A DNA stretch of 64,000 nucleotides from Telopea speciosissima (taxonomy: Eukaryota > Streptophyta > Magnoliopsida > Proteales > Proteaceae): the NCBI RefSeq assembly GCF_018873765.1, contig NC_057925.1, forward strand, positions 7,451,568-7,515,567, read 5' to 3'. Positions 14,336 through 41,476 of this stretch are shown piece by piece. Positions within the stretch are counted from its first letter, which is position 1. Every line of letters begins with the position of its first letter. The notes under the pieces were generated by a model. That model did no database searches and was not told where the DNA came from. It saw only the letters and a program-made list of their open reading frames with translations. Made by a program: the position numbers and the translations under genes.

Positions 14336-14339
14336 ATTG

Positions 14340-15190: not shown

Positions 15191-18100
15191 ATGGAATCAG
15201 AGACAATGAGCGGTACTGGGAAGACGGTGTGTGTCACAGGTGCTTCAGGGTACATTGCCTCATGGCTGGTGAAGCTTCTGCTCGCAAGAGGATACACTGT
15301 TAAAGCTTCTGTTCGTGACCCAAGTCAGTAGATATGTCTTAATTTTGAATCTCTCTATTCTTATTTCAGTTACTAAGCTTCATATTTACTGTCTCGTAGA
15401 GACGCTCTGTAATGTCTCTACTCCTTCATTTCTGTGCTACTTTCTACATACTTCAATTAGTTCTATTTCGAGTCTGTTTTGAATTATAGCATCATCCATT
15501 TCAAGGTTTTGCCTCAAATGTCATCCATTACTGGAGTATGCTGCTTTACTCTTCCTCATTGACATCGTAGAAATGCTCTGTTGTCTCTTTGCTCAGTCCT
15601 GAATCCAGGTAGTCTTATGGGGTCCTGCCCACAAATGATTTTTTGATCATATGGGTTTCTAGTAATAGCACAGTTCCAGTTTGTTAACCCTAGCAATTTC
15701 AATACATATATGTATATATCTTGGAGATTGTTACCCCTGTTTCTTTTGGTTTTGATGCACATAAAGCTTATTAATCTCATCTGAGTGCATTTCCTCCCAA
15801 ATTAGATTCAAGATGATAGTCAACTTCTTTCATTCATTTCCTATTCTACATTAGGTGATAGAAAGTCCAAGTAAAGTTCATACTTCCAGGTTATGTTTTA
15901 AGGATGAACCACAAATAAAATGCCATTCAGCCATTGTCTCCCTATTCCATCATGACTGTTTGGTATCACACTTGTGACACAATTAAACATTCGAATGTCT
16001 AACTTATCTTTGCAGGCCAAGGATGCCTGTGTTACTGTTGTTTAAATTCAGTTCATATGCCATTGCAGATGATACAAAGAAGACTGCACATTTACTTGCT
16101 CTTGATGGGGCAAAGGAAAGACTTCATTTATTCAAAGCAAACCTAATGGATGAAGGATCGTTTGATTCTTTAGTGGATGGATGTGAAGGTGTTTTCCATA
16201 CAGCATCTCCAGTTAATTTCGTAGACAAGAATCCACAGGTTCATTTCCATTACATCCTTGAGATAGTTTCAACTGCTATTTAGCATTTTATAACTTTTCT
16301 TAGCTACGAATTGTTACTGTCCATTTCTTTATTTTCTGATCGCCTTGATCTTGTGGTACTATGCTGGATTTCCTTCCCCACCCCTTCCTCTCTTGGCTTT
16401 GTTCTGCATGATTCTAAGCTTTTTCTCTTTTTTAATTGTCTGGGGGTAAGGCTGTGTACATTATGACCCTCCCCAGACCCCGCAGTGCCAGGAGCCTCAT
16501 GTACTGGGTACACCCTTTTTTGGTTCATTTGAAGGGAATGTTTATTGAATTTTATCACTTTGAAAGTTACTCAGAACCCCCCCCCCCCCACTCACACACA
16601 CACTGGGGACACTCTTTTTTGTTCATTTGAATGGAATGTTTGTGCAAGTTAGGAAACAAAACCGCATGCAGAATAACTTTCAAAGTGATAAATTCAATAA
16701 ACAACTTCTATATATATATATATATATATATTTGAAGTTGTTAAAGTTCCATCTGGTCTGACTCTACCTGATCTTGGGCATAACCTTATCTTTAGATTGA
16801 TTTGGGAAGCACTTCTAGAACTCAGGTTTGCTTTTTCTAAAAATTTCCTTCAGACTTTGGGAACCAGAGCCTGACCATATGCGTTATAGTTGCCTCCTTT
16901 ATCAACTAAATTAATTGTTTTAGGGACCAGTATGTTCTAAAGATTGATAAGATTTTAGTTCAAGCCTTTCCAAGCTCACATAATGTACTTTTAGCTTCTA
17001 TGATATTGCAATTGCAATTGAAGCGGATAAATATTCAGCCTACAACCTGATTTCTACGTGAGTTAAGGAATGAAATTCAATGCTTTTACATAGTAGCGCT
17101 TAAGCATTATCCTACATAGTGAGTTAAGGAATGAAAAAGTGATTGATTTTGCCATTTGGGTTAGAGATACAGGGCTGAAACCTGCCTCATGGAAAGGGAT
17201 AACTTGAGGACTGCGGTGACAAATTTTGAGCCGCAAACTCAGATGCTGCATGTCACAGCTAGGAAAAAAATACACTAGGAGTTGCTGCTCTGAACTACTT
17301 CGGACATGTGGCAGCTGAATATTCAAGTTAGGGACTTTTGTATTAATTCTGTTTTATTCAAACATAGGTCCATCAATTGGTTCTCAGGTGTGTTGAAGAG
17401 TGAAAACAAAAGGGGGAAAAAAAATGCCGAGTTCTTTGTAGGATTTCAACCCAACAAGTGCCCACCCTTTTCATCAAGTTTTCCCCTTTCCATGTGGCAA
17501 GTTCCAGCCACTGCATGCTGTGCTGAAGCTCAAAAACTGCTAACTTTTTAATCCTAACATGTCTGTGCTTTTTATATGTTTGCACACATGTATATACATG
17601 ATTACATCCAAACACACGAAAGCCCACAAAAGTCATGCTTATGTGTAGATGTTAATTTATTGCATTAAAATTTATGTAAAGTGGTGAACATGTGGATTGT
17701 GGAATATATGTTTATCACTGTACTAGAATGTGTGGGTCCTTTATCTCTCTTGGGGGGGGGGGGGGGGGCTGACCAGACCAGACTCCTTGAGAAATTGGAC
17801 TTTGATTCTTTTGCCAATGTCTTTGTTTTGAGACCAATCCCATTTCGAAGTCCATGCAGCAACCAAAAAATGAGATTTTACCCCCACTTAAGTAGCAATT
17901 GTGCACATGTTCATTAATGGTAATCACATTATTGTCCAAAAATGATTTTTAGCCATAATAGTTAAATGAGTCTCGACCTTATCGTGGTTTTTCTATTATT
18001 CTAATTTATTTTGAATAGAAATATAAATGATACCAAACACCTGCAAAAACGTTGTTTTATCAGAAAAAAAAAATTTGATACCAAACAGAGCCTAACATAA

Positions 18101-21100
18101 GCATGGAATTTTAGGTTGTATGATGAGAATAGGTCTCCTTTGGATTTTTCTGTGGAAACTATAGAAAGCCAACAATTTAGAATGGAGAGAAAAGGAAAGA
18201 TAATTGAAATAGATCAGTGCTAGTCTGCAAGCCATAATCCTACCAATACCCAGTATTTAGATGGCCAAGTAGGTGACAAATACTTTAATCAACTCAATCG
18301 TTAGTATAATGGGTGTGATTCTACTTGGTTTATCCTTATAACATCCTAGTTGCATTGGATTCTCGAAAACATAGGATCAAAACTATACTGTACTTCCTGA
18401 ACTTCTACTCTGAAGTTCTATTGGCATTACATCATAAATAGTGACTAACTGTGATTGTGGAAAAAACCTTCGATGAAAAAACTGCTTAATCATGACTGGC
18501 TTCAAAGGTGGAAACTTTATCAGAACTTGACTCAGTTTTGCAACTAAGGATACTAATCTGAGCTACAATATGTACCCATCAGTTGGCTTAAGTGACATTC
18601 AGTTGTTGAGAAATAGGGCCACTTGAGTTCATTGATTGAATCGAAGTATGCCAAAATTCCTAGCTAAACTTATGAGCCCTAAATCCATATTGTGAGAAGG
18701 GAAGAGCTGTTTGGATTGTCCATGAACTTTTTGCATGGACTATTTTTGCCTGTTTAATGATGTTTGGCATCTCTATGTCTTCCTTGGCTCCATAATGGTT
18801 TGTTGCTTCTTTTAAAATTTATGTTTGACTAGCATCTCAGTAACCATTGGAATAATGAAAATGGACCTGATGTGGTCTCAGGATTTTCATCATATAGTTA
18901 AACATTCCCTTAGGTATTTACTTTTTTAGTTCACTAGTATAAATATTCTATATCCATATTAACCATTCGTGACTATTCTGATACATGTTCATTCTCTGTT
19001 TTACTATGCATTTCAGGACGAATTAATTGGTCCAGCATTGAAGGGGACACTTAATGTTCTTGGGTCCTGTGCAAAAGCTCCGTCTGTTAAAAGAGTGGTT
19101 GTAACATCCTCTGTAGCTGCAGTTGCATACAATAGAAAACCTCGAACTCCAGATGTGGTAGTTGATGAGACTTGGTTTTCAGATCCAGAGTTTTGCAAAG
19201 AGATTGAGGTGTGTGTGGTTGTGCAGTGTTGTTTAGCTCTTATTGTCTGGGCCCTTTAGGCCTTCAACTTGGTTCTGTGAGTGTCTTTCTTTGACTCATT
19301 TTTCTATCCCACTTAAGTTGTTTTGAAATTTCATTTTATGGAATATTTTTAGGGATGAATATATATATATATATTTATATATATAATCCATCTGTCCATA
19401 ATGAAAATAAGGAGAGGGTTCCCTACACTGCTTGAGTGCAGTTTCGGGCGAATAAGGGAACCCCATTTGAAATCTGACATAAGGGGGAGGGGCACTTATG
19501 GCATATCACCCCCTCATATGAACAGAGTGATGTGGGGGGGTGCAATTTCATTTTTGAGCCGGCGTTGTATGAAACCTTTTCCCATGAAAATTTCTTTCTG
19601 TGTTGTGGATTTACTAATTTACTGGTCCAGTATATCTAATGAGCTTCTTATTCTCGTATAGACCGTCGGTTGGTATATAGTTTCGAAGACATTGGCTGAG
19701 GAGGCTGCATGGAAATTTGCAAAAGAGAAAGGGATGGACATGATTACAATAAATCCATTCATGGTGATTGGTCCTCTTTTACAGCCAACACTAAATGCAT
19801 CTACAGGATTAATTCTGAAATTAATAAATGGTATGCTTTCCTATTATTAAAGTTTTTTTTCTCTCTGCTCCCATCCCCCTTAATCTCTGCTTTCTCTCAC
19901 CCCCTTTTCTCCAATTGTGGAGGTAAACGTTTTCCCCAGTATATACTTATTTACCTAAAATGCTTTCTATGAATGACTAGTATTCTTAGATAACACAATT
20001 GTCTAACAAACTTAATTGAACAAATTATGGATCTATCTAAAATGAAACGTTACAAACCACTTCTATATAGAGGAATTGAAATTGAATACCACAAGCTCTT
20101 AGGAAAATGGAGCAACTAGTACCTTCAGAGATTCCTCGCTGTATGCTGTGTAAAAGAATTTTTCCTTAGGAGAAAAAAGCTAAACATCCTTACTATATGT
20201 CCTCACATGGTCGTGTCCCTTGCCCCATGGCAAACATGGAAGATAGGAGGTCCATGTGATAGTGGAAAGAACACTCATTTCACTGGTCAAACTTTAGCAT
20301 GAAACAATAAAAAAAAATTTAAGTTAATGGTTTACAAAATTACAAGAATGCCATTTCATAATAATTCTAAGGCATTCTTATAATTTGTCACATTTTAGAC
20401 ACTTCCCCTATTTTTTTAGGGCTGAAACTTAACCATTGGAAAAGGTGTGGGGTCTTCTATCACATGGATCCACCAATCTTTGGTCATGGAAAGTTGTGAT
20501 GGACATCAATCATCATATTGTGATAGTTCATATTCAGTAAACTAGTAAACTGGTATCACTATTATTTTTTTTGTTTTTGTTGTATATCTTTGTTGACACA
20601 CACAGTTCCTAAGCAGGCAGCATGTCTGTTATTTGAACATAGGCCTTAAAATTCGTAGGATGTTGTATACAATCACATTCATAGTTGTCATGGCAGCAGG
20701 ACAAGCTGTGGCACTGGCCAGCTGGCTTGAAGATGGACAGCAAGGCTAGATCCCTTGGCATAAAGGGAACTGGTCACCTTGGACCTGAAGGGGTACCCTG
20801 TTCTGTTGGCATCACCTTGACAACTATGATAAGATTTAATAGTTAGTTAAGGGAATATGTTACCTATGTGTTTTTAGAAAGAAAAACCAAAGTCTATTTT
20901 TTGACCTTGTCTTTTATTTTGTTATGTCACTCTTGTGATATAAGTGCCAATGTTTTAACTACTGCAGGAGCACAAGTATTACCCAATGAAACATTTGGAT
21001 GGGTTAATGTTAAAGATGTTGCAAATGCACATATTCAGGCATTTGAGATTCCTTCAGCCAATGGAAGATATGTTTTAGCTGAGAGAGTTGCTCATTATTC

Positions 21101-23215
21101 AGAGATTGTGAAAACTTTGCAAGAACTTTATCCAACTTTGCACCTTCCCGAAAAGTAAGTTTTGCAATCCAGATAAGTCAATTGCTGGAATATTAACTGA
21201 AATAAATAAGATGACACTAAATTATAGTTACTTCTGGTGATATATTGGATCCCTTTTTGCTGACACCAATTTATCAAGTAAATTATGTTTTCTCTGTAAT
21301 TTTACGTTATGAACTTTGGTATATGAACTGAGATTTGATATTTGACTTCTTGTAGTCACAAACTATATCATATTTCAATATAATTTGTAGGACACATCTC
21401 CCTGTAGGTTTTTACATGCCCTTCCATGCAGTGTCAGAGACGTCTAGACACTACTAGACACTCCTTTAGACCTCCTAAGGATTTCAACACTTGTGTAGTG
21501 TCTCCACACAGCAATCTGGAGGCTAGGGTTTAAATCCCTAATCGCAATGGAGACTAGTGTTTAAAACCCTAATTGTAGGAGAAAAAAGAGAGAAATTCAT
21601 AACTCAAATCTCTTTGGATCGATCCATTGCCCTTCCCCTTAAGTTTCAATATATAGATGAGGGAACCTTCATCCTAAGTGAGGCCCATAAGCCAAGTGGT
21701 GGGATCCTATTAGGAGATCCTACTAGGGTTTAATTTTTGTCTCCCTTTTATTCACCAAAAAATATTGCAATTTAAGTGATAAGTAAACTATTTACTTATT
21801 ACAATACCCTAGCCACCTCCGCCATTGCCTAAATGTCATTCTATGTGTTTACTTATTTTAAGGAAGCAAAGCTGTTTTTGAAGTTGCACTACACCTGCAT
21901 CATCCGACTCATATTAAAAGTTGTCTCGTGCAATCTCATGTGTGGCCCTCATTATGTCAGATTTGGGTTTCCTGTAGTAAGAGAATTGCCCGTAGAGTAT
22001 TTACCTGTTAGTCTCTCCACTTTTGTAGTTATTGTGTTGTGTTCATTTTCTATTACTTTTATTATTAATATGTTGTCTTTGCAAGGCCCCATGTAGCCGA
22101 CCCCATTTAGTTGGGATAAGGCTGGGTTGTTGTTGTTGTAGTCTCTCCACTTTACAATATCATAGATTAATGGGCATAGAATACTAATATTGTCTATAAC
22201 CTTATTCTGTCGTAAACATACAATCTGAAAATCTCGACCTTGGATTGGAAATAAACTTTATAAATTTTTTAATATAATTATTTAAATAATATTAATTAAT
22301 TAAAACCATTAAGTACTTTACAAAATAACCACCGAGCTCAGAATCTAGTTCTTTAAAGGTTAAGAATTTTTTCTTGATTTTCTTCTTGAACAGGAAGTAG
22401 ATTCCATATTGTGAATATCTCCCATTTGCTAGTGAACGTTGTGAATCCAGTACACCAATAATTAGCCGGTATTAGCATTAACTTCTTGTACACCAAAACT
22501 TACAAGATTCAAATTGTAATGATGAGGATCTCTTAAATCTAGAGACCAGAGTATCAATGATGAGTGTTATGGTTGAATAACAACAGATGACATTCCTTAC
22601 ACGATTCACATAATGATTCAGTTTGATACATCAGACACTTAACATATGAGTACTTACATTTGTATTTCTGAAATCTCATTCACTAGAAATATACAATGTA
22701 ACAACGATTGAACTGAATGCTAGTTCAGTCCCTAGTTGCGATCAACTTAAAAGTCTAACCTTAAGGCATATACAAACATTCAAAAATTACAAGAATTAAT
22801 TCAATTTAAACTATTCAAATTGGTTTGACACACATATCCAACAATCACCCTTAGTGTGCCTTGTTGTTGACTTGCTTTTAACCTGTATTACATGATATAT
22901 CTAAGGTAAATGAGGAAGAGCACCATTGTAAGATAAACGATCTTAACTCTTGGATTTCTTCTCCAGTGAGCCCTTTGAATGATTTTTGTTGGTTAAGAAA
23001 CCTATTCGGTGATTTAATGTGTACTATTCTCTCTATTGAGAAGATAAATATTGATTTTCTTTCTTGGCAGGTATGTTGATGACAAGCATTATGTGCCAAC
23101 CTTCCAAGTTTCCAAGGAGAAAGCAGAAAGCTTGGGGATAAAATTCATCCCTTTTGAGGTGAGCTTGAAGGAAACCGTTGAAAGCTTCAAAGAAAAAGGC
23201 TTTTTAAGTTCTTGA
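15191..23215 (+). CDS. Cinnamoyl-CoA reductase-like / phenylacetaldehyde reductase-like NADP-dependent reductase, copy 2
   Basis: Six exons: 15191-15323, 16069-16238, 19017-19208, 19662-19830, 20968-21154, 23071-23215; same phases as copy 1, 331 aa, no internal stop. It has the Rossmann motif TGASGYIA, the R-x5-K pair (R42/K48, within RDPNDTKK), the TSS serine motif at 131-133, and catalytic Tyr170/Lys174 in GWYIVSK. Differences from copy 1 are concentrated in exon 2 (residues 66-72), at the exon 3 start (DELIGP against AELIDP) and around the catalytic Tyr (TVGWYIVSK against IMGWYLASK). Those last changes line the active site, so substrate preference may differ. The introns match copy 1 closely, including shared MITEs, which shows a whole-gene tandem duplication. 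Its 3' end continues into the large inverted repeat, so read-through could make double-stranded RNA. Confidence 0.9.
19401..19592. mobile_element. MULE-type MITE in intron 3 of copy 2
   Basis: Same element and position as 6432-6631 in copy 1. The left duplication ATGAAAATA (19401-19409) is intact; the right one has decayed to atgaaaatt (19584-19592). It was inserted before copies 1 and 2 separated. Confidence 0.7.
20224..20490. mobile_element. MITE in intron 4 of copy 2
   Basis: Counterpart of 7299-7563, with the same CCATG ends, ggtccatgtgatag arm and inner hairpin. Absent from copy 3. Confidence 0.55.
22009..22153 (+). mobile_element. Short RTE-type LINE tail in intron 5 of copy 2
   Basis: Insert 22024-22138 between two copies of TAGTCTCTCCACTTT (22009-22023, 22139-22153). 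It ends with tgtagccgaccccatttag and (TTG)n. Counterpart of 9050-9202. Confidence 0.75.
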
Positions 23216-23884
23216 AGCTTGTCCAATAGATGCCATTGTTGGATATGTGTCCATCAAACCTGGTTCATATTAATGAAACATATATTTTATTTCGTGCGTG
23301 GTATGTATTTTATTGGGCTTGTAAGTTGTTCTATGGGTTTTTCACCTAAAACGGTTCTCGGCTAGGGACAAGACCATACATCCCGTTCATATGACCGTCA
23401 CATTGTATGTTATCAGAAATGAGTTTTTGATGTATAGATGTGGATACACATACTGTGTGTGTATAAAAAAGAATTTGGTAAGAATCTCACATGTGCTACT
23501 ACCAGTTGTGTGAGAACGAGATTTGTTCCTGTCATTTGACCTTCGACATGGGAGATCCTATTCATTGCAATGATGGGTTACTTCTTTTGGTAAGCCAATG
23601 GTTGACGTCCTACATACTATATATTGGTGCACTGGACACGTGATCATGCATTGTTAATGAAAGACATGCTCAATATGGAATCCACTACCGTTAATTCGAG
23701 AATATCAAGGAGAGAGAAAGTTTATGATTGATCGGACAAAAATTTGGTACCGGTATCTTTTTGGTAAATTATTTATAAAATTATTTTGCAATCTATGGTG
23801 GGGGATTCAAATATGAATTCTGATGAGGTGGCAGGGCAAAATATTCTCAGGATCTTCCCCTTATTCGCCCTTCTATTTTAAATT

Positions 23885-24317
23885 TAAACGCCAATGATGG
23901 GTTGACCCATAGTCTGAGGCGTGGGTCAGGTCGAGGGGGTATCATGCTTTGGGCCATGGCCGAGTTTTGGCTCATAGAGGTGGGTCTTCCTTGGGAGCTC
24001 GGGTGGCTTCTCCTCGTGGGGGAAGGCATGTTGGGGGTGCTTTCTCCTGTGTGGGTCAACTTGAGATGGATGTGTTGGATGCAGGGGGCAGTTTAGAAGT
24101 GGTTTTACCAGCGGGGGAGTCTCATGTGGTTGAGGATATAGCCCCTACATCTTTTCATGACGGTATGGTGATTGTGCAAGCAGCGGACGTGGTGGACATT
24201 GATAAGTCTGCTTTGACGACAAAGGAGGCTGCTCAACTATAGTCAAAGCAGCGTAGAGGGAAGAAAGTTCAGGAAGTGGAATTGCCTGGTTGCAAGCAGT
24301 CTAAGCACTTGGCTTCT
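23885..24317 (+). mobile_element. L1-type LINE fragment (ORF1 end region), left arm
   Basis: The frame 23949-24242 is open and ends with a Glu/Ala/Asp-rich tail, DIDKSALTTKEAAQL. The same protein is encoded on the - strand at 25662-25958, where an ORF2-like start follows. No known domain is visible in this ORF1-like piece; assignment rests on what follows it on the other arm. Similarity stops at cttggcttctta, exactly where the telomere-like array begins. Confidence 0.5.
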
Positions 24318-25050
24318 TACCCTAATCCCTAAACCCCATACCCTATACCCTAAATCCTATACCCTAAATCCTATACCCTAAACCCTAAACCATAAACGCT
24401 ATACCCTATACCCTATACCCTATACCCTATACCCTTTACCCTTATCCCTTACCCTAAACCCTAAACCATAAACCCTAAACCCAATACCCTATACCCTATA
24501 CCCTATACCTAAACCCTAAACCCTAAACCCTAAACCTTAAACATATATCGTATACCATATACCCTATACCATATACCTTATACCCTATACCCTATACAGC
24601 GTAGAGGGAAGAAAGTTTAGGAAGTGGAATTGCCTGGTTGCAAGCAGTCTAAGCACTTGGCTTCTTACCCTAAACCCTAAACCCCATACCCTATACCCTA
24701 AATCCTATACCCTAAATCCTATACCCTATACCCTATACCCTATACCCTATACCCTATACCCTATACCCTATACCCTATACCCTTCACCCTTATCCCTTAC
24801 CCTAAACCCTAAACCATAAACCCTAAACCCAATACCCTATACCCTATACCTAAACCCTAAACCCTAAACCTTAAACATATATCGTATACCATATACCCTA
24901 TACCATATACCTTATACCCTATACCCTATACCCTATACCTTATACCCTAATCCCAATACCCTAAACCCTAAACCCTATACCCTATATGGAATACCCTATA
25001 CCCTATACCTTCTACCCAATACTCTATACCCGAAACCCTATACCTTAATA
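24318..25050. repeat. Degenerate telomere-like array (CCCTAAA / CCCTATA)
   Basis: Heptamers CCCTAAA (plant telomere C-strand) are mixed with a variant CCCTATA, plus rarer CCCTAAT, CCATATA and similar. The array is interrupted near 24597-24667 by a second copy of the LINE border (cagcgtagagggaagaaag to cttggcttctta). The block is thus a higher-order unit of about 350 bp present twice. All repeats point the same way. Interstitial, not a chromosome end. Confidence 0.9.
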
Positions 25051-25074
25051 CCTCCGACAAAATAGATGAAATAG

Positions 25075-25505
25075 ACGAAAGTGCCACATAAGCAGCACTC
25101 TTCTTAATACCTCTAAGGTTCTAGAAGAGGACCTTCATTGGACAACTGCTGATTTAGAAGCCAATCGATCAAACCGCTTGCAACCAGGCTTCCTGAAATT
25201 TCTTCCCTCTATGCTGCTTCGACTAGACCGGAGCAGCCTCCTTCTCAGCCGCCAAAGCAGACTTAACAATATCCGCCACCTCCGCTGCTTGCACAATCAT
25301 CATACTATCGCGAAAAGATGTAGGGGCAATGGCCTCAACCACATGAGACTCCCCTGCCTATAAAACCACTTCTAAACTACCCCCTGCATCCAACACATCC
25401 ACCTCACATTGACCCACATAGGAGGAAGCACGCCCAACATGCGTTCCCCCACGAGGAGAAGCTGCCTGAGCTCCCAAGAAAGACCTGCCTCTATGAGCCA
25501 AATTA
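25075..25505 (-). mobile_element. L1-type LINE fragment, second tandem copy in the spacer
   Basis: On the - strand this repeats the content of 25506-26025 with about 430 bp periodicity: the ORF1-like end, then gcctggttgcaagcggtttg, then ggcttctaaatcagcagttg and the ORF2 start region, here frameshifted. It is more diverged than its neighbour. Confidence 0.5.
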
Positions 25506-26025
25506 GACGAAAGCGCCACATGAGCAACACTCTTCTTTAAACCTCTAATGTTCCAAAAGAGGACCTTCATTGGACAACTGCTGATTTAGAAGCCAAGCCT
25601 CAAACCGTTTGCAACCAGGCAATTCCACTTCCTGAACTTTCTTCCCTCTACGCTGCTTTGACTACAGTTGAGTAGCCTCCTTCTCTGCCGCCAAAGCAGA
25701 CTTATCAATGTCCACCACCTCCGCTACTTTCACAATCACCATACCGTCACGAAAAGATGTAGGGGCAATATCCTCAACCACATGAGACTCCCCTGCCTGT
25801 AAAACCACTTCTAAACTGCCCCCTGCATCCAACACATCCACCTCACGTTGACCCACATAGGAGGAAGCACGCCCAACATGCCTTCCCCCACGAGGAGAAG
25901 CCACCCGAGCTCCCAAGGAAGACCCACCTCTATGAGCCAAAAGCAGGCCATGGCCCAACGCATGATGCCCCCTCGACCTGACCCATGCCTCGGACCATGG
26001 GTCAACCCATCATTGGCTTTTAAAT
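25506..26025 (-). mobile_element. L1-type LINE fragment: ORF1 end and start of ORF2 endonuclease
   Basis: On the - strand an ORF1-like frame (25662-25958) is followed by MKVLFWNIRGLKKSV (from 25570), the typical opening of the plant L1 ORF2 endonuclease domain (WNIRGL). The endonuclease is cut off after about 23 residues and replaced by more ORF1-like sequence, so the element is a broken relic. It forms the inner end of the right palindrome arm. Confidence 0.6.
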
Positions 26026-26695
26026 TTAAAATAGAAGGCCGAATAAGGGGAAGATCCTGAGAATATTTTTCCCTGCCACCTTATCAGAATTCAATTTTGA
26101 ATCGCCCACCACAGATTGCAAATAGTTTTGTAAACAATTTACAAAAATGACACTGGTATCAAATTTTTGTCCAATCAATCACAAACTTTCTCTCTCCTTG
26201 ATATTCCCGAATTAACGATAGTGGATTCCATGTTGAGCATCTCTGTCATTAATAATGCGTGATCACGTGTCTAGTGCGCCGATATATAGTCTGTAGGACA
26301 TCAACCATTGGCTTACCAAAAGAAGTGACCCAACATTGCAACGAATAGGATCTCCTAGGTCAAAGGTCAAATGACAAGTACGAATCTCGTTCTCACACAA
26401 CTGGCAGTAGCACATGCGAGATTCTTATCAAATTCTTTTCTATACACACACAGTATGTGTACCCACATCTATGCACCAAAAACTCATTTCTGGTAACATA
26501 CGATGTAATGACCATATGAACGGGATGTATGGTCTTGTCCCTAGCCGAGAACTATTTTGGGTGAAAACCCATGGAACAACTTACAAACCCAATAAAATAC
26601 ATGCCATGCACGAAATAAATAAACGTTTCATTAATATGAACCGGGTTTGATGGACACATATCTAACAATGGCATCTATTGGACAAGCTTCAAGAA

Positions 26696-26828
26696 CTAAA
26701 AAAGCCCTTTGAAGCTTTCAACGGTTTCCTTCAGGCTCACCTCGAAAGGGATGAATTTCATCCCCAAGCTTTCTGCTTTCTTCTTGGAAACTTGGAAGGT
26801 TGGCACATAATGCTTGTCATCAGCATAC
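26696..26828 (-). pseudogene. Orphan exon 6 of a reductase, inverted
   Basis: Read on the - strand, an intact acceptor (ttcttggcag) is followed by a frame matching exon 6 of copies 1 and 2 ([13 protein letters not shown] near its start). A 6-bp loss near the 3' end changes the last residues and brings a TAG earlier (26696-26698). No other exon accompanies it, so it cannot make an enzyme. It could contribute antisense RNA to the paralogues. Confidence 0.85.
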
Positions 26829-27750
26829 CTGCCAAGAAAGAAAATCAATATTTATCTTCTCAATAGAGAGAACAGTACACATTAAATCACTAAATAGGTT
26901 TCTTAACCAACAAAAATCAATCAAAGGGCTCACTGGGGAAGAAATCCAAGAGTTAAGATCGTTTATCTTACATTGGTGCTCTTCCTTATTTACCTTAGAT
27001 ATATCATGAAATACAAGTTAAAAGCAAGTCAACAACAAATCAAACTAAGGGTAATTGTTGGATATGTGTGTCAATTAAAACCAATTTGAATAGTTTAAAT
27101 TGAATTAATTCTTGTAATCTTTGAGTGTTTGTATATGCCTTAAGGTTAGACTTTTAAGTAGATCGCAACTAGGGACTGAATTAGCATTCAGTTCAATCAT
27201 TGTTACATTGTATATTTCTAGTGAATGAGATTTCAGAAATATAAATGTAAGTACTCATATGTTAAGTGTATGATGTATCAAACTGAATTATTATGTGAAT
27301 CTTGTAAGGAATGCCATCTGTTGTTATTCAGCCATAACACTCATCATTGATACTCTGGTCTCTAGATTTAAGAGGTCCTCATCATTGCAATTTGAATCTT
27401 GTAAGTTTTGGTGTACAAGAAGTTAATGCTAATACCGGCTAATTATTGGTGTACTGGATTCACAACGTTCACTAGCAAATGGGAGATATTCACAATATGG
27501 AATCTACTTCCTGTTCAAGAAGAAAATCAAGAAAAAATTCTTAACCTTTAAAGAACTAAATTCTGAGCTCGGTGGTTATTTTGTAAAGTACTTAATGGTT
27601 TTAATTAATTAATATTATTTAAATAATTATATTACAAATTTTATAAAGTTTATTTCCAATCCAAGGTCGAGATTTCCAGATTGTATGTTTACGACAGAAT
27701 AAGGTTATAGACAATATTAGTATTCTATGCCCATTAATCTATGTTATTGT

Positions 27751-27905
27751 AAAGTGGAGAGACTACAACAACAACAACTCAGCCTTATCCCAACTAAATG
27801 GGGTCGGCTACATGGGTCCTTGCGAAGACAACATATTAATAATAAAAGGAAACGAAAATGAACACAACACAATAACTACAAAAGTGGAGAGACTAACAGG
27901 TAAAT
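27751..27905 (-). mobile_element. RTE-type LINE tail carried in the inverted arm
   Basis: Complement of 22009-22153. The flanking AAAGTGGAGAGACTA repeats lie at 27751-27765 and 27891-27905, and caacaacaactcagccttat marks the element end. Confidence 0.75.
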
Positions 27906-28219
27906 ACTTTACGGGCGATTCTCTTACTACAGGCAACCCAAATCTAACATAATGAGGGCCACACATGAGATCGTACGAGACAACTTCGAATATGCATCGG
28001 ACGATGCGGGTGTAGTGGAGCTTCAAAAATAGCTCTGCTTTCTTTAAATAAGGAAACACATAGAATGACATTTATGCAATGGCGGCGGTGGCTAGGGTAT
28101 TGTAATAAGTAAATAGTTTACTTATCACTTAAATTGCAATATTTTTTGGTAAATAAAGGGGAGACAAAAATTAAACCCTAGTAGGATCACCCAATAGGAT
28201 GCCACCAGTTGGCTAATGG

Positions 28220-28985
28220 GAGCAATATCTCTTAATCCAATCATCAGATTTTGGCGATCTAATATTGTCAGAAAGGTTTTCGCGAGTACTATCTGATGGC
28301 ATAGACATCGGTTGTAAATTATGTTGAAAATGTTCTGAAAATAAGAGAGAGATATAAATTAATTTTATAGGATGGAAAATGTGTTTTCTGGCGTACCTAC
28401 CTTAAGGATGCTGTCAAGCTTTTATTGGCAAGGCTAATTAAAGAGGGGCAAAATTTAGAGCCTACAGTGTCATAAATTTTTTTTGGGGGGGGGGGGGGGT
28501 GGGGTGTTGCTTAGAGGCGATTGTTATATACACAGACCTACACTGTGCAGCTAGGTGTTGTTTTTGAATTAGAAAATTGGGTTAGTATCATATTACACAG
28601 ACCTTCATTGTGCATTTAGATGCTGTGTCTGGATTAGAAAACTGGATTAGTTGAGGCTCTCTTTATTGCAATGTAAAATAGGAAAAGTTGAACCCAATTT
28701 TTTTTGGGCCAAATGTTCTCTGTGCCAGGGGCGCAGGCTACCCTGTGGCACAGAGAACATCAACCCTTTTTTTTTTTAAAAAAAAAAAGGTGTTTTATTG
28801 GAAGTAAAAGAAGAGATGTAATCACTTAAAGCTCTAAAGGGATCCACAATTATATACCCAAATACTGTAAAGTAGAAGTAAAATATTTCCTCTACTTTGG
28901 GTGAGGGGGGTTGTTTCTAAACAGTGGTGTAGCTGGGTGACATGTATGGTGGGCTAGAAAACTGGATTCAACTTGAATGGTAGCT
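28220..28985. other. Intergenic repeat-rich DNA between palindrome and solo LTR
   Basis: There is no gene. A long G-run lies near 28484-28498. A repeat unit, cacagaccttcattgtgcat then ctggattagaaaactgga, occurs twice (about 28535-28590 and 28597-28650), and its second half again at 47743-47767. A hairpin (28713-28727 with 28746-28760, atgttctctgtgcca) has the look of a short fold-back element. Confidence 0.5.
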
Positions 28986-31881: not shown

Positions 31882-34800
31882 ATGGAATCAGAGGCAATGG
31901 GCGGTGCTGCGAAGACGGTGTGTGTCACAGGTGCTTCTGGGTACATCGCCTCATGGCTGGTGAAGCTTCTGCTTGCCAAAGGATACACTGTTAAAGCTTC
32001 TGTTCGTGACCCAAGTCAGTATATATATCTTAATTTTGAATCTCTCTATTCTTATTTCAGTTACTAAGCTTCATATTTACTGTCTCGTAGAGATGCTCTG
32101 TAATGTCTCTACTCCTCCATTTTGAGATTCATTTCTGGGCTACTTTCTACATACTTCAATTAGTTCTATTTCGAGTCTGTTTTGAATTATAGCATCACCC
32201 ATTTCAAGGTTTTGCCTCAAATGTCATCCATTACTAGAGTATCCTGGTTTACTCTTCCTCACTGACATCGTAGAGATGCTCTGTTGTCTCTCTGCTCAGT
32301 CCTGAATCCAGGTAGTCTTATGGGGTCCTGCCCACAAATGATGTTTGGTCTACCATAATTTTGTTTTCATTACATGGATTTCTAGTAATAGCACAGTTTC
32401 CAGTTTTGTAACCCTAGCAATTTCGATATATATATCTTGGACATTGTTTACCCTGTTTCTTTTTGTTTTGATGCACATAAACGTCATAAAGCATATTATT
32501 CTCATCTGAGTGCATTGAAGGCTTTATATTTCCTTCCAATTCTTGGGTGAATAATAACTATTTCCTCCCAAATTAGATTCAAGATGATAGTCAACTTCTT
32601 TCATTGATTCTTTTTTTACATTAGGTGATAGAAAGTCCTTGTAAAGTTCATACTTCCAGGTCATGTTTAAGTATGAACCACAAATAAAATGTCACTCAAG
32701 CCATCATCACGCTATTCCATCATGACTGTTTGGCATCACAATTGTGACACAATTAAACATTCGGATGTCTAACTTATCTGTGCAGGCCAAGGATGCCTGT
32801 GTTTCCTGTTGTTTTAATTCATTAAATTCAGTTCATATGCTGTCACAGATGATCCAAAGAAGACTGAACATTTACTTGCCCTTGATGGGGCAAAGGAAAG
32901 ACTTCATTTATTCAAAGCAAACCTATTGGAAGAAGGATCGTTTGATTCTTTAGTAGATGGATGTGAAGGTGTTTTCCATACAGCATCTCCAGTTTATATG
33001 ACAGTCAAGGATCCACAGGTTCATTTCCATTACATCTTTGAGATAGTTTCAACTGCTATTTATCATTTTATAACTTTTCTTAGCCACGAATTGTAACTGT
33101 CCATATCTGGTTCATTCTTTGGAACCACATCACATCCTTGATCTGATGAAATAGGATGAATTAAGATGGTAATTTGTAAATACGAAATTATCTTCAATAT
33201 ATCAACCATTTTTTATTTTCTGATTGCCCGGATCCTATGGTACATTGGTACTACGCTGGACTTCCTTCCCTACCCCCTTCTTCGCTTGGCTTTGTTCTGC
33301 ATGGCTATAATCTTTTTCATGTTTTTAATGGTCTGGGGGTAAGACTGCGTACATTATGACCCTCCCCAGACCCTGCAGTGGCGGGAGCCTCGTGCATTGG
33401 GTACGGCCTTTTTTGTTCACTTGAGGGGAATGTTTATTGAATTTTATCACTTTGAAAGTTACTCTGCATGCAGTTTTGTTTCCTAGCTTGCATATATTTG
33501 AAGTTGTTAAAGTTTCTAGCTGGCCTGACTCTTCCTGATCTTGGGCATAACCTTATCTTTAGATTGATTTGGGAAGCATTTCTAGACCTCAGGTTTGCTT
33601 TTTCTAAAAATGTTCTTCAGACTTTAAAAACCAGAGCCTGAACATATGCACTATGTGCTATAATTGCCTCCTTTATCAATTAAATTAATTGGTTTAGGGA
33701 CAAGTATGTTCTAAAGATTGACAAGATTTTAGTTCAAGCCTTTCCAAGCTCACATAATGTACTTTTAGCTTCTATGATATTGCAATTGCAATGGAGGGAT
33801 GTATATTCAGCCAACAACCTGATTTCTACGTGAGTTAAGGAATGAATACATTAGATTTGGCTTGGGGTGGCTCATTGATGCTGGTCCAAGCACCCGCAAG
33901 AAGAAGAAGCAGCCCTAGAATAGGGCTGAATGTTAGAATGTTGGATCCTTAGTTTTAATTTTCAGTTTTCAGCTTTTATACTTAGTTTATTTTATATACT
34001 TAATTTGAACCATGGTCTGACCTGTTCAATTTAAGTGACTCCTTTCTATTGGCTAGAATTTGTTTTATTTCTATTGGTCCTTAGTGGATCTTTGAAGTTA
34101 TTTGTTTTTAAGCTAATTAGTCCCCCTCCACGATTTCTATTGAGGGCTGGATTTGTTTTGTATTAGGAATCATTCTTAGGACTGTTATTCCTAAGCTGAA
34201 TTGATGTAAGGCCATTGGCCATATTAGTATAAATAAAGCTCAATGTGGGAGGCTCCCCCACAGTTCAAATTTTGAAATTAATTCTCTGGTATTGCTGCCA
34301 TTGTTGCTGCTACTCTGCTCCAGTTGTGAGTGTTGCCTTGTGGATCTCAAGGTGAAGGGATTGGGGGATTACCAATCAACTGCTTGCTTCTGTTCAGATC
34401 GGGAGGCTCTCTTATTCATCTTCAAGCTGCTGCTGCTGTGGAAGATTAGTTCTACAAGTAAGTATTTTACAGATTTGCAAATAACCTTCTTCTTCTAATC
34501 CTCCAACCTAAGCCTACCTACCTTCCAGCTCTATTCCACCATCAGATCCATCCCAAACTCACACTACAGTTCCAGCAACTCATCCCCCTCACTTGATCTC
34601 CATTCCAGTCCCAACATAACACATAAACCCTAATTCCCCTTCATCTCTGTGAAACCTAAAACTCCTAAAACCTGTCCAGACCTAACCAACCATCCAATCC
34701 ACACCAAACTACAGCCCAACCACCCTCTCCCTTTCAGTAACACTCGACCAGAACCGGTTGCCCAATTTCCCCCTCTAAACCCTAGATCTCATCATCCCCT

Positions 34801-37800
34801 TCATTCCTAGAACCCAAAACCCAAAACCCTAATTTCCTATAATTCAAATCTTCACCCAAACCCTACCAATCCTACCTCATTAGACTCCATTGTCCTAACC
34901 CTAACCCTAGATTTTGACTTAAACCATCAAATCTGTCCAATCGGTCAGCAGGTTCTAAATCCTTGGTTCCTAGTAGACCCTTTGTCTATCTAGGACTACA
35001 TTACTCATAATCCAACTTAACTCGTCCAAGTTGCATCCTGGCAAATTGTGGTTCAAGGCTCTGTTCATGTGTTACTGGACAAGCTAGGTTGGTGTTTATA
35101 CTCCTTTTGGTCTTCATATATCTGAGATTTAAGGAATCTGGTAGTCAAGTTATTATTGCACTATAATTTGACCCAAGTGACAATTAGGAAAGAAAGCAAA
35201 GCATGGGGAATGTGGAATCATGTATGAATAAGCAACATCCATATTTTGCCAGAATGAGCACAGTTTGGTCCTGTTAGTTTGAATGAGCATAGAGGAAGTA
35301 TTCATTAATGTTGGGTGAGTTTTACTGGAACTAATGAACAGGAGTACATTCAACTACTGTTCACCCACATGTACAGTTTCCTTATCTAGATAAGCATGAT
35401 GGCACTTGAAAATTGTGCTTTCAATTCATGCTACTAGTAGTAACTCATAAGCATTATCCGACATAGCAAATGACACCTGAAAAAGTTGATTTTGCCATTT
35501 GGGATAGAGATATAGGACTGAATCCTGCCTCATGGAAAGGGATAACTTGAGGAATGGGGCAACAAATTTTGAGCTGCAGGCTCAGATACTGCATGTCAGA
35601 GCTAGTTTGAAGCAAGTTTACTGTTGTTAGAAAAAAAAAAAAAAACAGAAAAATCTATGGGTTGCTGCTCTGAACTACTTCGGACTTGTAGCAGCTGAAT
35701 ATTCAATTAGGGAATTTTGGTTAATTCTTTTTTATCTAAGAACTGTCTATTGGGTTTCTTCCAATTGGTTCTCAGGTGTATTGAAGAGTGAAAACAGAAG
35801 AAAAACAAAAATATACCGAGTTCTTTGTAGGATTTCAACCCAACAAGTGCCGACCCTTTTCATCAAGTTTTCCCCTTTCCATGTGGCAAGTTCCAGCCAC
35901 TGCATGGTTTGCTGAAGCACAAAAACTGCAACCTTTTTAATCATAATATCTCTGTGAATGTTATATGTTTGCACATATGTATATGCATGATTACATCCAA
36001 ACACATAAAAGCCCACAGAAGTCATGCTTATGTGTAGATGTTAATGTATTGCATTAATATTTATGTAAAGTGGTGAACATGTGGATTTTGGGAGGGGGAA
36101 AGGGGGTGACCAGACCAGACTCCTTGAGTAATTGGACTCTCATTCTTTTGTCAATGTCTTTGTTTTGAGACCAATCCTGTTTCCAAGTCCATGCAGCAAC
36201 AGAAAACGTGAGATTGAGGCTAAACAGTTTTAACTTTCAAGGCTCTCTTTGGTATCATTTATGCTTTTGTTTACGGCCTATTTAAAAAAAAAGCATTAAT
36301 GAAAACCTTTTTTATAAAAACCGTTTGCTAAACATTGGACATAATAGAGTATAGAATGAGAAACCGTTTGGTAACCACCTATGTGTAAATAATTTTAACT
36401 GGTGGGTGAAGGGATTCCCTCTTTTACCTATCTTCCTCCCCATTATATTATAATATTACTATGTATAATATAATATTAAATATAATATAATAATTATTAT
36501 GTATTATATTACTCATAATTTATAATATAATATATAACAGAAGCCTTCCATTTTATAATATAGCATATATATATTATATTTATAATATATAGTATATAAT
36601 ATATTATAGAATATATATTATATATTATATATAATATGATGCAGTATCAAGAGTGAAGAAGATCCCTCATGCTGTTTTGGTCCACATCAGAATTAGATCA
36701 AGCCGTAGGGCTAAGAACCAAGCCTAGCCATGGTGTATGCAAGCTCTCGTTTCGCGGGCCCATGTGGTCCAATCCTTGAAGCTTCCAAAATTTTGGAGTC
36801 TCTAGTTATGTGTGTTGTCTTTTCTTTTGGTACTTGTCTTTTTATATTCCTAGGTGTATTAATGTAACTTTTTAAATTCCTAGACTAGGAGTTTAAGGGT
36901 CAAAGTCTAAGTCTTTAATACTTTATTGGTATTAGTTTCTAGGTGAGTTCTCCTAGAATCATTTACCGATAAAGTGGCTCTACAAGAAAAGTGAAATTTT
37001 GAGGGAAATACTAACGAGATGTGGATTGAGATGACGACTTGTATTAAAAAGGTTGCTAAAGAAATCCTAGGAATTTCAAAGGGTATGTGTCTGGCCCCCT
37101 AGAGAGACTTGATGGTGGGATGACGAGGTCCAAGCAGCCATTAAGACTAAGAAAGATCGTTTTAAGACCTCGCAGTGAACTATAATCAAGCAGAGGATAA
37201 AGTGAGATATTATGCGACCAGAAAAGAAGCTCGAAAGATTGTGGGGAAAGCAAGAGCGAACAAATATGATGACCTTGATAAAAAACTTAATACAAAGGGG
37301 AAAATGCGGTTTATCGGATAGCTAAAATAAGAGAAAGGAAGAGCCGAGATTTGGACCATATTAAATGCATTAAGAGCGAGGATGGTAGAGTACTAATACG
37401 TGATGAGGACATTATGGAGAGATGGGGTGAATATTTTTACAACCTACTAAATAGAGCTACCTTGACTAATAGGATGGATTCGGAAGTCGAGAGTAGTAGT
37501 CTTGAAGCCAATACACGTCATAAACATCTACAACGAGTTGGCGAGGCCGAAGATAAAGAGGCCCTACGAAAGATGAAGGTGGGCAAAACACTAGGACCCA
37601 ATGAGATGAGATCTTAATTCAAGTGCGGAAGAACTTAGGAGTACATGGGGTATTGTCGAAACCGCTTCCTCTAAAAGGCCGACCTTGTAGGAAAGGGAGG
37701 AATCAATATGTATATCATACAAGAGCTTTTAACACGGCAGACTATCCAAAGGGGGACACGGGTGGATAAATAATTTTTTAACACCTGCCCGCTCCTAGGG

Positions 37801-39881
37801 GAACTCAATACCATGACCCCTGCTTGCTTTGATACCATGTAGAAACCGTTTCCTCTAAAAGGCCGACCTTGTAGGAAAGGGAGGAATCAATATGTATATC
37901 ATACAGGAGCTTTTAATACGGCGGACTATCCAAAGGGGGACACGGGTGGATAAATAATTTTTTAACAGGTATCTTGGCTAAGCAAGCTGTTTAACAAGAT
38001 TTTGAGTACAAAGAAAATGTCAAATGATCGGAGGAGAAGCACTGTAGTTCCGATTTATAAGAATAAAAGTGATATCTAAAACTGGAATAACTATAGAGGC
38101 ATAAAACTAATGAGTCATACCATGAAACTATGGGAAAAAATCATTGAAGTCCACCTAAGAGAAACTGATATATCGGAGAACCAATTTGGTTTTATGCCAG
38201 GGAGATCCACGACGGAAGCTATTTACCTTCTAAGGAGGCTTATGGAAACTTTTAGAGCTTACAAAAGGAACCTCTATATGATCTTTATTGACCTAGAAAA
38301 GGCCTATGACAGAGTCCCTAGAGAGCTCATTTGGCATGTCCAAGGGAAGAGAATGAGCTCAAGTAACTATGTGGATATAATTAAGGACATGTATGAGGGT
38401 GTGGTGACCAGTGTCAGAATTGCAAAGGGCCAAAGTAGTGAATTCCCAATTACAATTGGGTTATTCCAAGGATCAACTCTAAGCCCTTATTTGTTTGCAC
38501 TCATCAAGGATTATTTAACCAAGCACATCTAAGATGAGGTCCCTTGGTGTATGCTATTCGTTGATGATATTGTTTTGATAGATGAGACAGTGGAAGGGAT
38601 TAATGTAAAGCTGGAGTTATGGAGATCAAGCTTGGAATCAAGACGTCTTAAGTTAAGCAGAACAAAGACAATATATGATGTGTAACTTCAGTCAAACCAG
38701 GAAAGATAATGAAGTGGTGAAACTTGAGGAGTGAGAGCTACCACAAAGTAAATGCTTTAGATACTTAGGGTCAACCATTAACAAAGAGGGTGATATAAAG
38801 GATGATGTTTCCCACATAATTAAAGTAGGATGGATGAAGTGGAGAGGTGCATTGGGAGTGTTATGTGACAAATGCATGCTTATTAAGATTAAGGGGAAAT
38901 TATACAGGATAGTAATAAGACCTGCTATGACATATGGGGCAGAATGTTGGGCAGTTAAGAAAAGTAATATAGATAAGATGAGTATAGCGGAGATGAGGAT
39001 GTGCGGCAAGACTAGGAGAGATAGAGTAAGAAATGATTGTATTAGAACCGAATTGGGAGTTGCACTAATCCAGGACAAGCTCTGTGAGAGCCGCTTGAGG
39101 TGGTATGGTCATGTACAACGGAGACCCATGAATGCACCAGTAAGGAAGAGTGACCAGATTCAGTTTGACGGAGCTAAAACAGGTAAGGGCAGACCTAAAA
39201 TGACTATTGGAGAAGTGGTAAGAAAGGATATGCTTGTGGTAGGGCTTGATTCTAGTATGATCACTAAGAGAGTTGTTTTGGAGGATAAGGACCCGTGTAG
39301 CCGAGCCCTTGTAGGGGGATGTTCCTGGGATGTTGCTTTGACTACTGCTTTGACTTCTTCCTTTACATATTTTCCTTTTTACTTCCTTTTACTCCTTTTT
39401 ACTTCTTTTTACTTCTCTTCTACTATTGTCATAGCTTCTATCGGATCCATGTAGCCGACCCAATTTAGTTGGGATACGGTTATGGTTGTTGTTTTTTGTT
39501 TATTAGTCTAGGGAGTCCAATAGTTGTGTGCTAGGAATTAATTTTCTTGGAGTTATATTCTAGGCCTTTATTTAGTCAAGAGTTACATTTTCTTTAAATA
39601 CCTATTGTCATCCAATGTTTGTAGCAGTCTTGAAATGAATTGAAGCCTAGCTGGCCCAGAAAATGCATTGAGCATCCCCTCCCCTTCAGGTTTTGGTGAG
39701 TTCTTTTTCTCTCCCATATTTTCTTCCCCTTATCTTCTTTACTTTCTACCTATCATCTTCTTCTTCTGGAATTTGACCCTTCATCTTCCACCTGACCCAT
39801 CATCTTTCTTCATCCCTACGGCACCCCTTTGCTACCTCTAAACCAGAACCTGATCTATGATCTATTTCAAATCTTAGCCTC

Positions 39882-39916
<35 letters not shown>

Positions 39917-41437
39917 TGTTTCCAATTTTCATTAATTTTACCAGTTTACCCCACTTAAGTAGCAACTGTGCACATGCTCTTTAATGGTACCCACATTAAT
40001 GGCCAAAAACGATTTTTGGCCATAATAGATAAATGGGTCTTGACGGTAGTTTGGGTTTTCTATTATTCTGATTACTTTAAATAGAAACAGGGTGCCCAAA
40101 TGATACCAAACACCTGCAAAAAAATGTTTTTTGTCTGAAAAAAAAAATACAAATGATACCAAAGAGAGCCTAACATAAGCATGGAATTTTAGATTGTATG
40201 ATGAGAATAGATCTCCTTTGGTTTTTTCTGTGGAAGCTTTAGTAAATAGAAAATCAACAGTGTAGAATAGAGAGAAAAAGAAAGATAATTGAAATAGATC
40301 AGTGTTAGTTTGCAAGCCATAATCCTAACAATACTCAGTATTTAGATTGCCAAGTAAGTGACAAATACTTTAATCAACTCAATCATGAGTATAATGGGTG
40401 ACGTTCTACATGGTTTATCCGTATAACATCCTAGTTGCGTTGGATTCCCTAAAGCATAGGATCAAAACTAGACTGGACTTCCTGAACTTCTACTCTGAAG
40501 TTCTATTGGCATTACAGCTCAAATAGTGAATAGCTGTGATTGTGGAAAAAACCTTCGATGTAAAAACTGTTTAATCATGACTGGCTTCAAAGGTGGAAAC
40601 TTATCAGAACTTGACGCAGTTTTGCAACTAAGGAAACTAATCTTAGCTATACTATTTGCCGATCAATTGGTTTAAGTGACATTCAGAGCTGAGAAATAGA
40701 GCCGCTTGAGCTCATTGATTGAATCAAAGTAGGCCAAAATTCCTAGTTAAACTTATGAGCCCTAAACCCATATTGTGAGTGACAAGAAGGGAAGAGCTGT
40801 GTGGATTGTCCCTGAAGTTTTTGCATTGACTATTTATGCCTGTTTAATGCTATTTGGCATCTCTATGTCTTCCTTGGCATCATAATGGGTTGTTGCTTAT
40901 TCTGAAATTTATATTTGACTAGCATCTCAGTAACCATTAGAATGATGAAAATGGACCTAATTGTGGTCTCAGGATTTTCATTACTTGGTTAAATCATTCC
41001 ATTAGGTATTTACCTTTTCTGTATACAAGTATAAATATTCTATATCCATATTAAGCATTTGTGACTGTTCTGATACATGTTCATTCTCTGTTTCACTATG
41101 CGTTTCAGGCCGAATTAATTGATCCTGCATTAAAGGGGACTCTTAATGTTCTTGGATCCTGTGCAAAAGCTCCGTCTGTTAAAAGAGTGGTTGTAACATC
41201 CTCTGTAGCTGCAGTTTTATACAATGGAAAACCTCGAACTCCGGATGTGGTAGTTGATGAGACTTGGTTTTCAGATCCAGCGTTTTGCAAAGAGATGAAG
41301 GTGTGTGGTTGTGCAATGTTGTTTTACTATTATTGTCTGGGCCCTCTAGGCCTTGAACTTAGTTCTGTGAATGTCTTACTCTGACTCAATCTTCTATCCC
41401 ACTTAAATTGTTTTGAAATTTCATTTTATGGGTTTTT

Positions 41438-41476
<39 letters not shown>

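Follow-up and report, generated by a model that had tools for sequence, protein, structure and literature searches.

An inverted partial duplication behind an intact reductase gene of Telopea speciosissima is probably a relic of break repair

Introduction

Among the described systems that resemble the locus reported here, all characterised below from excerpts of the cited papers, the PAI1-PAI4 repeat of Arabidopsis Ws is a tail-to-tail inverted repeat in which a gene leads into its inverted copy, with linked and unlinked relatives sharing the sequence (PMC3203196). The present locus has the same tail-to-tail arrangement with a gene leading in, intact here and expressed in the case of PAI, and relatives that share its sequence. 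However, its second arm comprises part of intron 5, exon 6 and repeat fragments, its arms differ by about 6%, and it is known from sequence alone. At the soybean I locus (CHS1-3-4), an inverted repeat likewise lies in a tandem gene family of the phenylpropanoid pathway, whose members are possible trans targets. Its arms are 10.91 kb long and perfect, contain whole genes and have been demonstrated to yield siRNAs (PMC3804491), whereas those described here are 2.6 kb long, imperfect and restricted to one exon. The Allen model of MIRNA birth by inverted duplication also involves an inverted target-gene segment adjoining a relative of the target (PMC3237417), but the stem considered here is far longer, has no Rfam match at gathering score within 15000-32000 and has been read only as genomic DNA. 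Finally, short telomere-like arrays are found at rearrangement joins as interstitial telomeric sequences associated with break repair in primates and rodents (PMC7215372); the array at our join, read in its final state only, is from a plant, degenerate and rich in CCCTATA. A literature search focused on reductases returned no title on such a locus among its best matches, a statement that we do not extend to a wider absence.

The window analysed here comprises 64,000 nucleotides of Telopea speciosissima (NC_057925.1, positions 7,451,568 to 7,515,567). The original prediction, made from the letters alone, had proposed that it contains a natural hairpin locus acting as a built-in regulator of an array of reductase genes.

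Results and discussion

The locus belongs to an array of ten forward-oriented reductase copies rather than the three first counted, and the right arm holds the sole inverted one of its 11 exon-6 places (Table 1). Copy 2 aligns over its full length with the solved structure 4qtz_A (residues 10-329, E 3.6e-155), with YIVSK opposite YVVSK. Judged by this full-length relation and the aligned YxxxK motif, whose usual meaning we presume to apply, its product would be a plant CCR/CAD2/DFR-like reductase. Copies 1 and 2 are intact and show an estimated pairwise dN/dS of about 0.45.

BLASTN of the window against itself aligned 21684-24317 with 28220-25588 on the minus strand (93.1% identity over 2642 columns, E = 0.0), and an ungapped repeat search recovered both arms as well, split into pieces. 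The inverted duplication is thus confirmed as real. With a left arm of 2634 bases, a right arm of 2633 bases and a spacer of 1270 bases (24318-25587), it agrees with the predicted arms of about 2.6 kb, copied from the 3' end of copy 2 and separated by about 1.3 kb. Rows excluded from the self-comparison were those shorter than 80 columns, those that began in the CA-rich array (55700-57400) and those within the telomere-like spacer. In all remaining long minus-strand rows, one of the reductase copies 1 to 3 was matched by the right arm or by the partial duplicate of it at 25156-25502, and unrelated inverted rows in the window reached at most 187 columns. The BLASTN homology of the right arm to copy 1 ends at the same point as the arm edge, at copy 1 position 8726.

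Table 1. Positions of the reductase genes, the two arms and their constituent elements in the window
Feature	Position	Strand	Remarks
Copy 1 reductase gene	2097..10238	+	331 aa; without inverted arm
Copy 2 reductase gene	15191..23215	+	six exons, 331 aa, uninterrupted
Copy 2 exons	15191-15323, 16069-16238, 19017-19208, 19662-19830, 20968-21154, 23071-23215	+	
Left arm	21684..24317	+	runs on from copy 2; distal intron 5, exon 6, 21 bases of native 3' end, LTR-like fragment, LINE fragment
Exon 6 of copy 2, within left arm	23071..23215	+	
LTR-like dispersed repeat fragment	23237..23792	+	3' end cut; sharp edges relative to dispersed copies
LINE fragment, end of ORF1	23793..24317	+	
Telomere-like array	24318..25068	+	CCCTAAA and CCCTATA units, single orientation
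Second partial copy of right-arm LINE end	25069..25502	-	tandem duplication, period 439; 88.5% identical to 25501-25941
LINE ORF2 start (MKVLFWNIRG...)	25501..25596	-	right side only
Right arm	25588..28220	-	left arm inverted; truncated within intron 5 at 28220
Exon-6 relic in right arm	26696..26828	-	5-base deletion near end; splice acceptor still AG
Copy 3 reductase gene	31882..46304	+	327 aa, provided that exon 4 begins at 41566

The two arms group as sisters, with bootstrap values of 86 for four sequences and 98 for eleven. In the four-sequence comparison, this grouping is backed by 9 sites, as opposed to 4 and 3; 7 of the 9 are clustered, and the grouping recurred in 768 of 1000 block bootstraps. 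As read from these alignments, the arms are shown to be each other's closest relatives and to have arisen after the split of copies 1 and 2. The sister grouping also led us to reject the notion that the right arm is part of another paralogue. A different concern is that the right arm was misjoined here through the telomere-like repeat, given that the join is a simple repeat, a place where assemblers fail. However, the arms differ at 164 aligned positions and by 17 gap columns and carry 23 private changes each, and this equal drift argues against a single molecule folded back during assembly. Moreover, the right arm has its nearest relative in copy 2, a member of the array in which it lies, the sequence continues into copy 3, and a third close copy is missing from the assembly. 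We regard such an artefact as very improbable; on the evidence of these alignments, the worry about misassembly is eased but not removed.

In the predicted fold of a read-through RNA, the right arm pairs with 137 of the 145 bases of exon 6, which bears out the proposed long hairpin from copy 2 as far as geometry is concerned. Perfect pairing extends over 21 or more pairs in 39 stretches of the stem, the longest comprising 171, and 58 of the 164 arm mismatches are so oriented that a G:U pair can still form. Exon 6 is the sole part of the stem able to target mature mRNA. It is paired no better than intron 5, the arms mismatching at 6/140 positions in the former and 65/1387 in the latter, and sliding arm identity is highest within intron 5 (22284-22483). 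Together with the equal numbers of private changes and the 5-base deletion, these mismatches offered no hint that the stem is under selection.

By sequence, the stem could pair with the mRNA of relatives, as at the CHS I locus: the right-hand exon 6 has perfect 21-mer matches in copy 1 (30/113), copy 2 (29/113) and four of the seven other array copies (14, 12, 6, 2, 0, 0 and 0 of 113). For copy 3, none of the 113 matches perfectly, no perfect 21-mer is common to it and the hairpin, and its exon 6 is 86% identical to that of copy 2 over 129 bases. The coding part of the stem, described earlier as close to all three paralogues, is therefore close to copies 1 and 2 but less so to copy 3. Inverted duplication of target genes has been proposed as the origin of young plant MIRNA genes (PMC3237417), and DCL1 might accordingly cut one short stretch of the stem precisely into a miRNA-like RNA directed against the array. 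The stem, however, is 2.6 kb long rather than a short foldback, and no conserved short segment was seen in it, arm identity peaking outside exon 6; an incipient MIRNA gene strikes us as extremely improbable.

The divergence between copies 1 and 2 jumps near the arm edge, with a change-point at 21841 (1 of 200 shuffles as high). On their branches, CHG-type changes amount to 7/76 in the arm region versus 5/328, a difference found among several uncorrected tests. Such changes are also raised on the copy 3 branch (7/38 versus 8/164), the change-point for CG and CHG changes combined lies at 19525, upstream of the arm, and copy 1 shows the raised decay of this region although it has no inverted arm. 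We therefore did not accept the extra decay as a methylation footprint of the hairpin; the pattern is suggestive of methylation, but apparently not of an arm-specific kind. Within the arms, the repeat half is more diverged than the gene half, with an excess in transitions (P = 1.8e-5), and none of the single cytosine contexts differed significantly between the halves (CG 0.84, CHG 0.19, CHH 0.11). A higher proportion of CG and CHG sites in the repeat half could account for its stronger divergence.

It is conceivable that the hairpin is active, with a minority of copy 2 transcripts reading through and the RNA being diced to 21-24-nt siRNAs that reduce the expression of copies 1 and 2 and of some paralogues or guide non-CG methylation to the 3' ends of these genes; this might happen in a single tissue. 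Consistent with this idea, the layout is PAI-like (PMC3203196), exon 6 is largely paired in the predicted fold, and perfect 21-mers reach copies 1 and 2 and, at 2 to 14 of 113, four other copies. In soybean, CHS targets with 82% identity are silenced via mismatched siRNAs (PMC3804491), and tobacco hairpins with one mismatch in four still silence, although their antisense strand matched the target perfectly (PMC9263138). In addition, the end of the gene derives from a repeat, and of five poly(A)-like words sought in 23200-25600, AATGAA alone occurs there, at 23272 and 23656. However, the stem lacks signs of selection, copies 1 and 2 are still intact, a perfect 21-mer is lacking in copy 3 and in three of the other seven copies, and the decay footprint is not specific to the arm, so that we consider an active hairpin unlikely, albeit worth serious thought. 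Alternatively, a decayed hairpin may still be working, its mismatches of about 6% escaping the self-methylation of perfect inverted repeats while its siRNAs tune the ten-gene array in trans. The transposon fragment would then have made the copy 2 gene end leaky, and the raised CHG decay in copy 1 would represent a trans footprint; we find this scenario highly doubtful.

Thus, the silencing proposal stood with regard to geometry, comprising an intact gene that runs into a tail-to-tail partial copy and a predicted fold. A role of the hairpin as a built-in regulator of the array is possible but finds no clear backing in the sequence tests bearing on function, which were negative or unspecific. 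An active hairpin would be a natural silencer of the PAI or CHS kind, directed at a phenylpropanoid-type reductase array in a woody species beyond the standard models, and would serve as a natural experiment on how much drift a hairpin tolerates before silencing stops. If inert, it would provide a dated control on hairpin drift, namely a 2.6-kb gene-derived inverted repeat kept beside intact genes.

In our view, the locus is probably a relic of break repair, in which the 3' end of copy 2 was partly duplicated in inverted, tail-to-tail orientation. Both arms carry one mosaic of distal intron 5, exon 6, LTR-like fragment and LINE fragment, and they meet at a one-way telomere-like array. As reconstructed from this final state only, a break within the LINE fragment would have been mended through fold-back or sister fusion, the arm sequence being copied a second time in reverse and the join acquiring telomere-like filler. 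The right arm occupies the position of the second PAI1-PAI4 arm, so that any copy 2 transcript running beyond the repeat-derived gene end would form a long imperfect hairpin, but such read-through is most likely rare. Small RNAs, if any, would stem mostly from the repeat half, making the relic perhaps a weak small-RNA source, and a strong and durable influence on the reductase genes is most likely absent.

In weighing a relic, we counted in its favour the sisterhood and equal drift of the arms, an exon 6 that is no better paired and has a 5-base deletion, the intactness of copies 1 and 2, the lone inverted exon-6 place among 11, the lack of an Rfam family, and the mosaic of cut repeats with a one-way array at the join. 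Counted against it were the long, well-paired stem, of a kind that makes siRNAs elsewhere, the change-point at 21841 and the CHG-type excess on the branches leading to copies 1 and 2, as expected from trans-methylation, the few and largely clustered sites (9 versus 4 and 3) behind the four-sequence sister grouping, and a repair route reconstructed from its end product.

The stretch 23237-23792, previously taken for 3' flank, turned out to belong to a dispersed LTR-like repeat, of which a fragment starts 21 bases past the copy 2 stop codon. At three places, two members of this family lie on the same strand at a distance of 7.2-7.4 kb, which suggests that they are LTRs. A complete solo LTR was rejected, as nine relatives among the matches listed continue beyond the endpoint of this copy. 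For the ORF1-end LINE fragment, no close copy was found elsewhere in the genome. The LINE pieces of the window matched no Pfam family, and neither did one LINE relative; a neighbouring frame of one relative reached E 0.00034 against Exo_endo_phos_2, below the curated cut-off. The LINE ORF2 start, whose MKVLFWNIRG we take to be an ORF2-like start motif, has 23 related places elsewhere in the genome. The telomere-like array, which fills most of the spacer, comprises 22 CCCTAAA and 31 CCCTATA units, none of them reversed, and this single polarity led us to reject a head-to-head telomere fusion. The 69-base end of the left LINE piece recurs inside the array, at about 24597-24665, and exact fourfold repeats of CCCTATA occur at only three places in the genome.

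Structure of the inverted duplication

The inverted duplication of the 3' end of copy 2, one of three forward reductase genes in the window, is genuine, old and uniquely placed. Comparison of the window with itself yielded a single long inverted pair (93.1% over 2642 columns), bearing out the sizes and coordinates in the original prediction, which had proposed a natural hairpin silencing the reductase array. An ungapped repeat comparison recovered the same pair, split in pieces. The remaining long minus-strand rows of the self-comparison matched the same right arm to copies 1, 2 and 3, and inverted rows unrelated to this arm spanned at most 187 columns.

Coordinates of the inverted duplication and neighbouring features (window positions)
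Feature	Position	Strand	Remarks
Copy 1	2097-10238	+	
Copy 2	15191-23215	+	
Copy 3	31882-46304	+	lengthened by insertions
Left arm	21684-24317	+	paired with 28220-25588
Right arm	25588-28220	-	
Centre	24318-25587		
Copy 2 exon 6	23071-23215	+	
Right-hand exon 6	26696-26828	-	relic
Dispersed repeat, LTR-like	23237-23792		left arm; matches elsewhere in genome
LINE fragment, ORF1 end			left arm, adjoining LTR-like repeat; also right arm
Tandem duplication, period 348	24249-24945		
Tandem duplication, period 439	25072-25941		
LTR-like-derived gene end	10260-10348, 23237-23329		common to copies 1 and 2; 21 bases past stop codon
Copy 2 versus copy 1	15105-23329, 2007-10348		noncoding divergence climbs from ~4% to 6% along gene; CHG-type changes up from ~19.5 kb
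MITE-like self-inverted pieces	14336-14518, 31153-31327		5' of copies 2 and 3; ~180 bases
GC-rich open frame	29085-29711	-	short tandem repeats
RTE-like LINE pieces	37291-39454, 42792-44246		among copy 3 insertions; RVT_1 match within 43181-43777
Minisatellite-like, CA-rich	55748-57382		~1.6 kb
SWIM and GRF zinc-finger frames	57476-59364	-, +	adjoining

Paired as RNA, the arms would form 2461 Watson-Crick and 58 G:U pairs, with 106 mismatched positions and 17 gap columns; perfect runs of at least 21 pairs number 39 and total 1528 pairs, the longest comprising 171. A fold computed on 22900-27000, which covers only the inner part of the arms, predicted pairing with the right arm for 137 of the 145 bases of copy 2 exon 6, 107/114 in 23216-23329, 429/457 in 23330-23786 and 499/531 in 23787-24317.

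Age and composition of the arms

Over the gene-derived portion of the arms (distal intron 5 and exon 6), the K2P distance between left and right was 0.049, compared with 0.064 (left) and 0.063 (right) to copy 1. Maximum likelihood on four sequences grouped the two arms (bootstrap 86; branch lengths: left 0.026, right 0.024, stem 0.007, copy 1 0.033), and bootstrap support was 98 with seven more paralogues added (821 of 2001 columns kept). Resampling recovered the grouping in 859 of 1000 replicates for single sites and 768 of 1000 for 100-column blocks; of the nine sites that support it, seven lie in a cluster, so that a conversion tract could contribute. Each arm carries 23 private changes. 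Judged by these distances and the sister grouping, the inversion took place somewhat later than the duplication that gave copies 1 and 2; the four-sequence tree puts it at roughly three quarters of the age of that duplication.

The arms differ by 8.65% in the repeat half and 4.70% in the gene half. Since this excess is confined to transitions (P = 1.8e-5) and does not extend to transversions (2.2% vs 1.8%, P = 0.48), both halves can share one age. No individual cytosine context was significantly faster in the repeat half than in the gene half, and its richer CG and CHG content may thus explain its divergence.

In copy 3 and the seven other array copies examined, homology to copy 2 ends at 23236 (23241 in one copy), about 21 bases past its stop codon. 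With 23330-24317 as the query and 40 of 556 candidates scored, 38 of the 42 matches listed lie elsewhere, spanning only its first part, and three times among them same-strand pairs lie 7.2-7.4 kb apart, a spacing that suggests LTRs. Copy 1 retains just the first 93 bases of the LTR-like repeat (to 10348); the repeat was therefore inserted before the copy 1/copy 2 split and subsequently truncated in copy 1. The gene end derived from it is absent from the other array copies examined. No further close copy of the ORF1 end was found in the genome, its 10 matches comprising four in this locus (85-100%) and six elsewhere (68-78%). The right arm additionally holds an ORF2 start, MKVLFWNIRGLKKSV; of the 25 related places listed for it, two belong to this locus and 23 lie elsewhere. 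One relative neighbours a frame whose endonuclease match is weak and under the Pfam cut-off, making the inner arm fragment a likely rather than a proven LINE.

The centre contains a CCCTAAA/CCCTATA array in one orientation, and the tandem duplications have copied the LINE ends. Four consecutive exact CCCTATA units are found in three places in the genome, this locus included. Read outward from the LINE end of the right arm, the array runs as TTTAGGG/TATAGGG, the orientation expected of a broken end to which telomere repeats had been added. Interstitial telomeric pieces were inserted during break repair in primates and rodents (PMC7215372); telomeric pieces may have entered in this way here too.

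Putative silencing

The layout of copy 2 and the right arm resembles the Arabidopsis PAI inverted repeat, at which a minority of transcripts continue into the second arm and the shared sequence is covered by methylation (PMC3203196). The duplication has the architecture of known silencing loci, and its PAI-like layout favours a hairpin that silences reductase relatives. The right-hand exon 6 shares perfect 21-mers with copy 1 (30/113), copy 2 (29/113) and four of seven other array copies (2 to 14/113), but none with copy 3 or the other three. At soybean CHS, silencing extends to targets with mismatches (PMC3804491), and mismatched transgene hairpins work, although the antisense strand in that case was a perfect match to its target (PMC9263138). 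However, exon 6 is paired no better than intron 5 (mismatches 6/140 vs 65/1387), the right-hand exon 6 has lost five bases, and copies 1 and 2 are intact (dN 0.026, dS 0.058), so that neither has been silenced over a long period.

As a proxy for methylation, we compared noncoding decay between copies 1 and 2, with uncorrected P values from several tests. Divergence was higher in the arm (94/1465) than upstream (229/5585; P = 0.0003), and its change-point, at 21841, falls close to where the arm begins (21684). The arm was likewise enriched in CHG transitions (12/55 vs 19/313; P = 0.0006), whereas CG transitions did not differ between arm and upstream (P = 0.58). However, the CG+CHG change-point lies at 19525, the arm region is faster on all three branches, and the polarised CHG excess on the copy 1 and 2 branches (7/76 vs 5/328) is also found on the copy 3 branch (7/38 vs 8/164), so that trans-methylation is not required, although it may have contributed; a regional property predating the hairpin would explain the pattern. 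Silencing is unnecessary to account for the sequence, and the duplication is most likely a relic, possibly a weak small-RNA source.

Reductase array and other features

Copies 1 and 2 each encode 331 uninterrupted residues, and copy 3 encodes 327 if its exon 4 starts at 41566. This exon lacks two codons at its start, and pairwise dN/dS for copy 3 is high (~0.78-0.85). Among solved structures, copy 2 is most closely related to 4qtz and 4quk, which are Medicago CAD2 entries deposited under the name dihydroflavonol-4-reductase, followed by cinnamoyl-CoA reductases. In the genome (822,943,500 bases, 1287 contigs), an exon 3 search found 12 places, 10 forward at 7.39-7.62 Mb and two at 57.2 Mb on the same contig. 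Exon 6 with its surroundings, with 40 of 52 candidates scored, gave at least 10 forward places and at least one reverse place, the right arm, at 7.39-7.62 Mb. The three copies in the window, which itself spans contig positions 7451568-7515567, belong to a 10-copy forward array of ~230 kb (contig positions 7392220-7623196). Elsewhere in the window, the GC-rich open frame has no Pfam match, and the GRF and SWIM frames resemble those of Mutator-like or FAR1-like elements.
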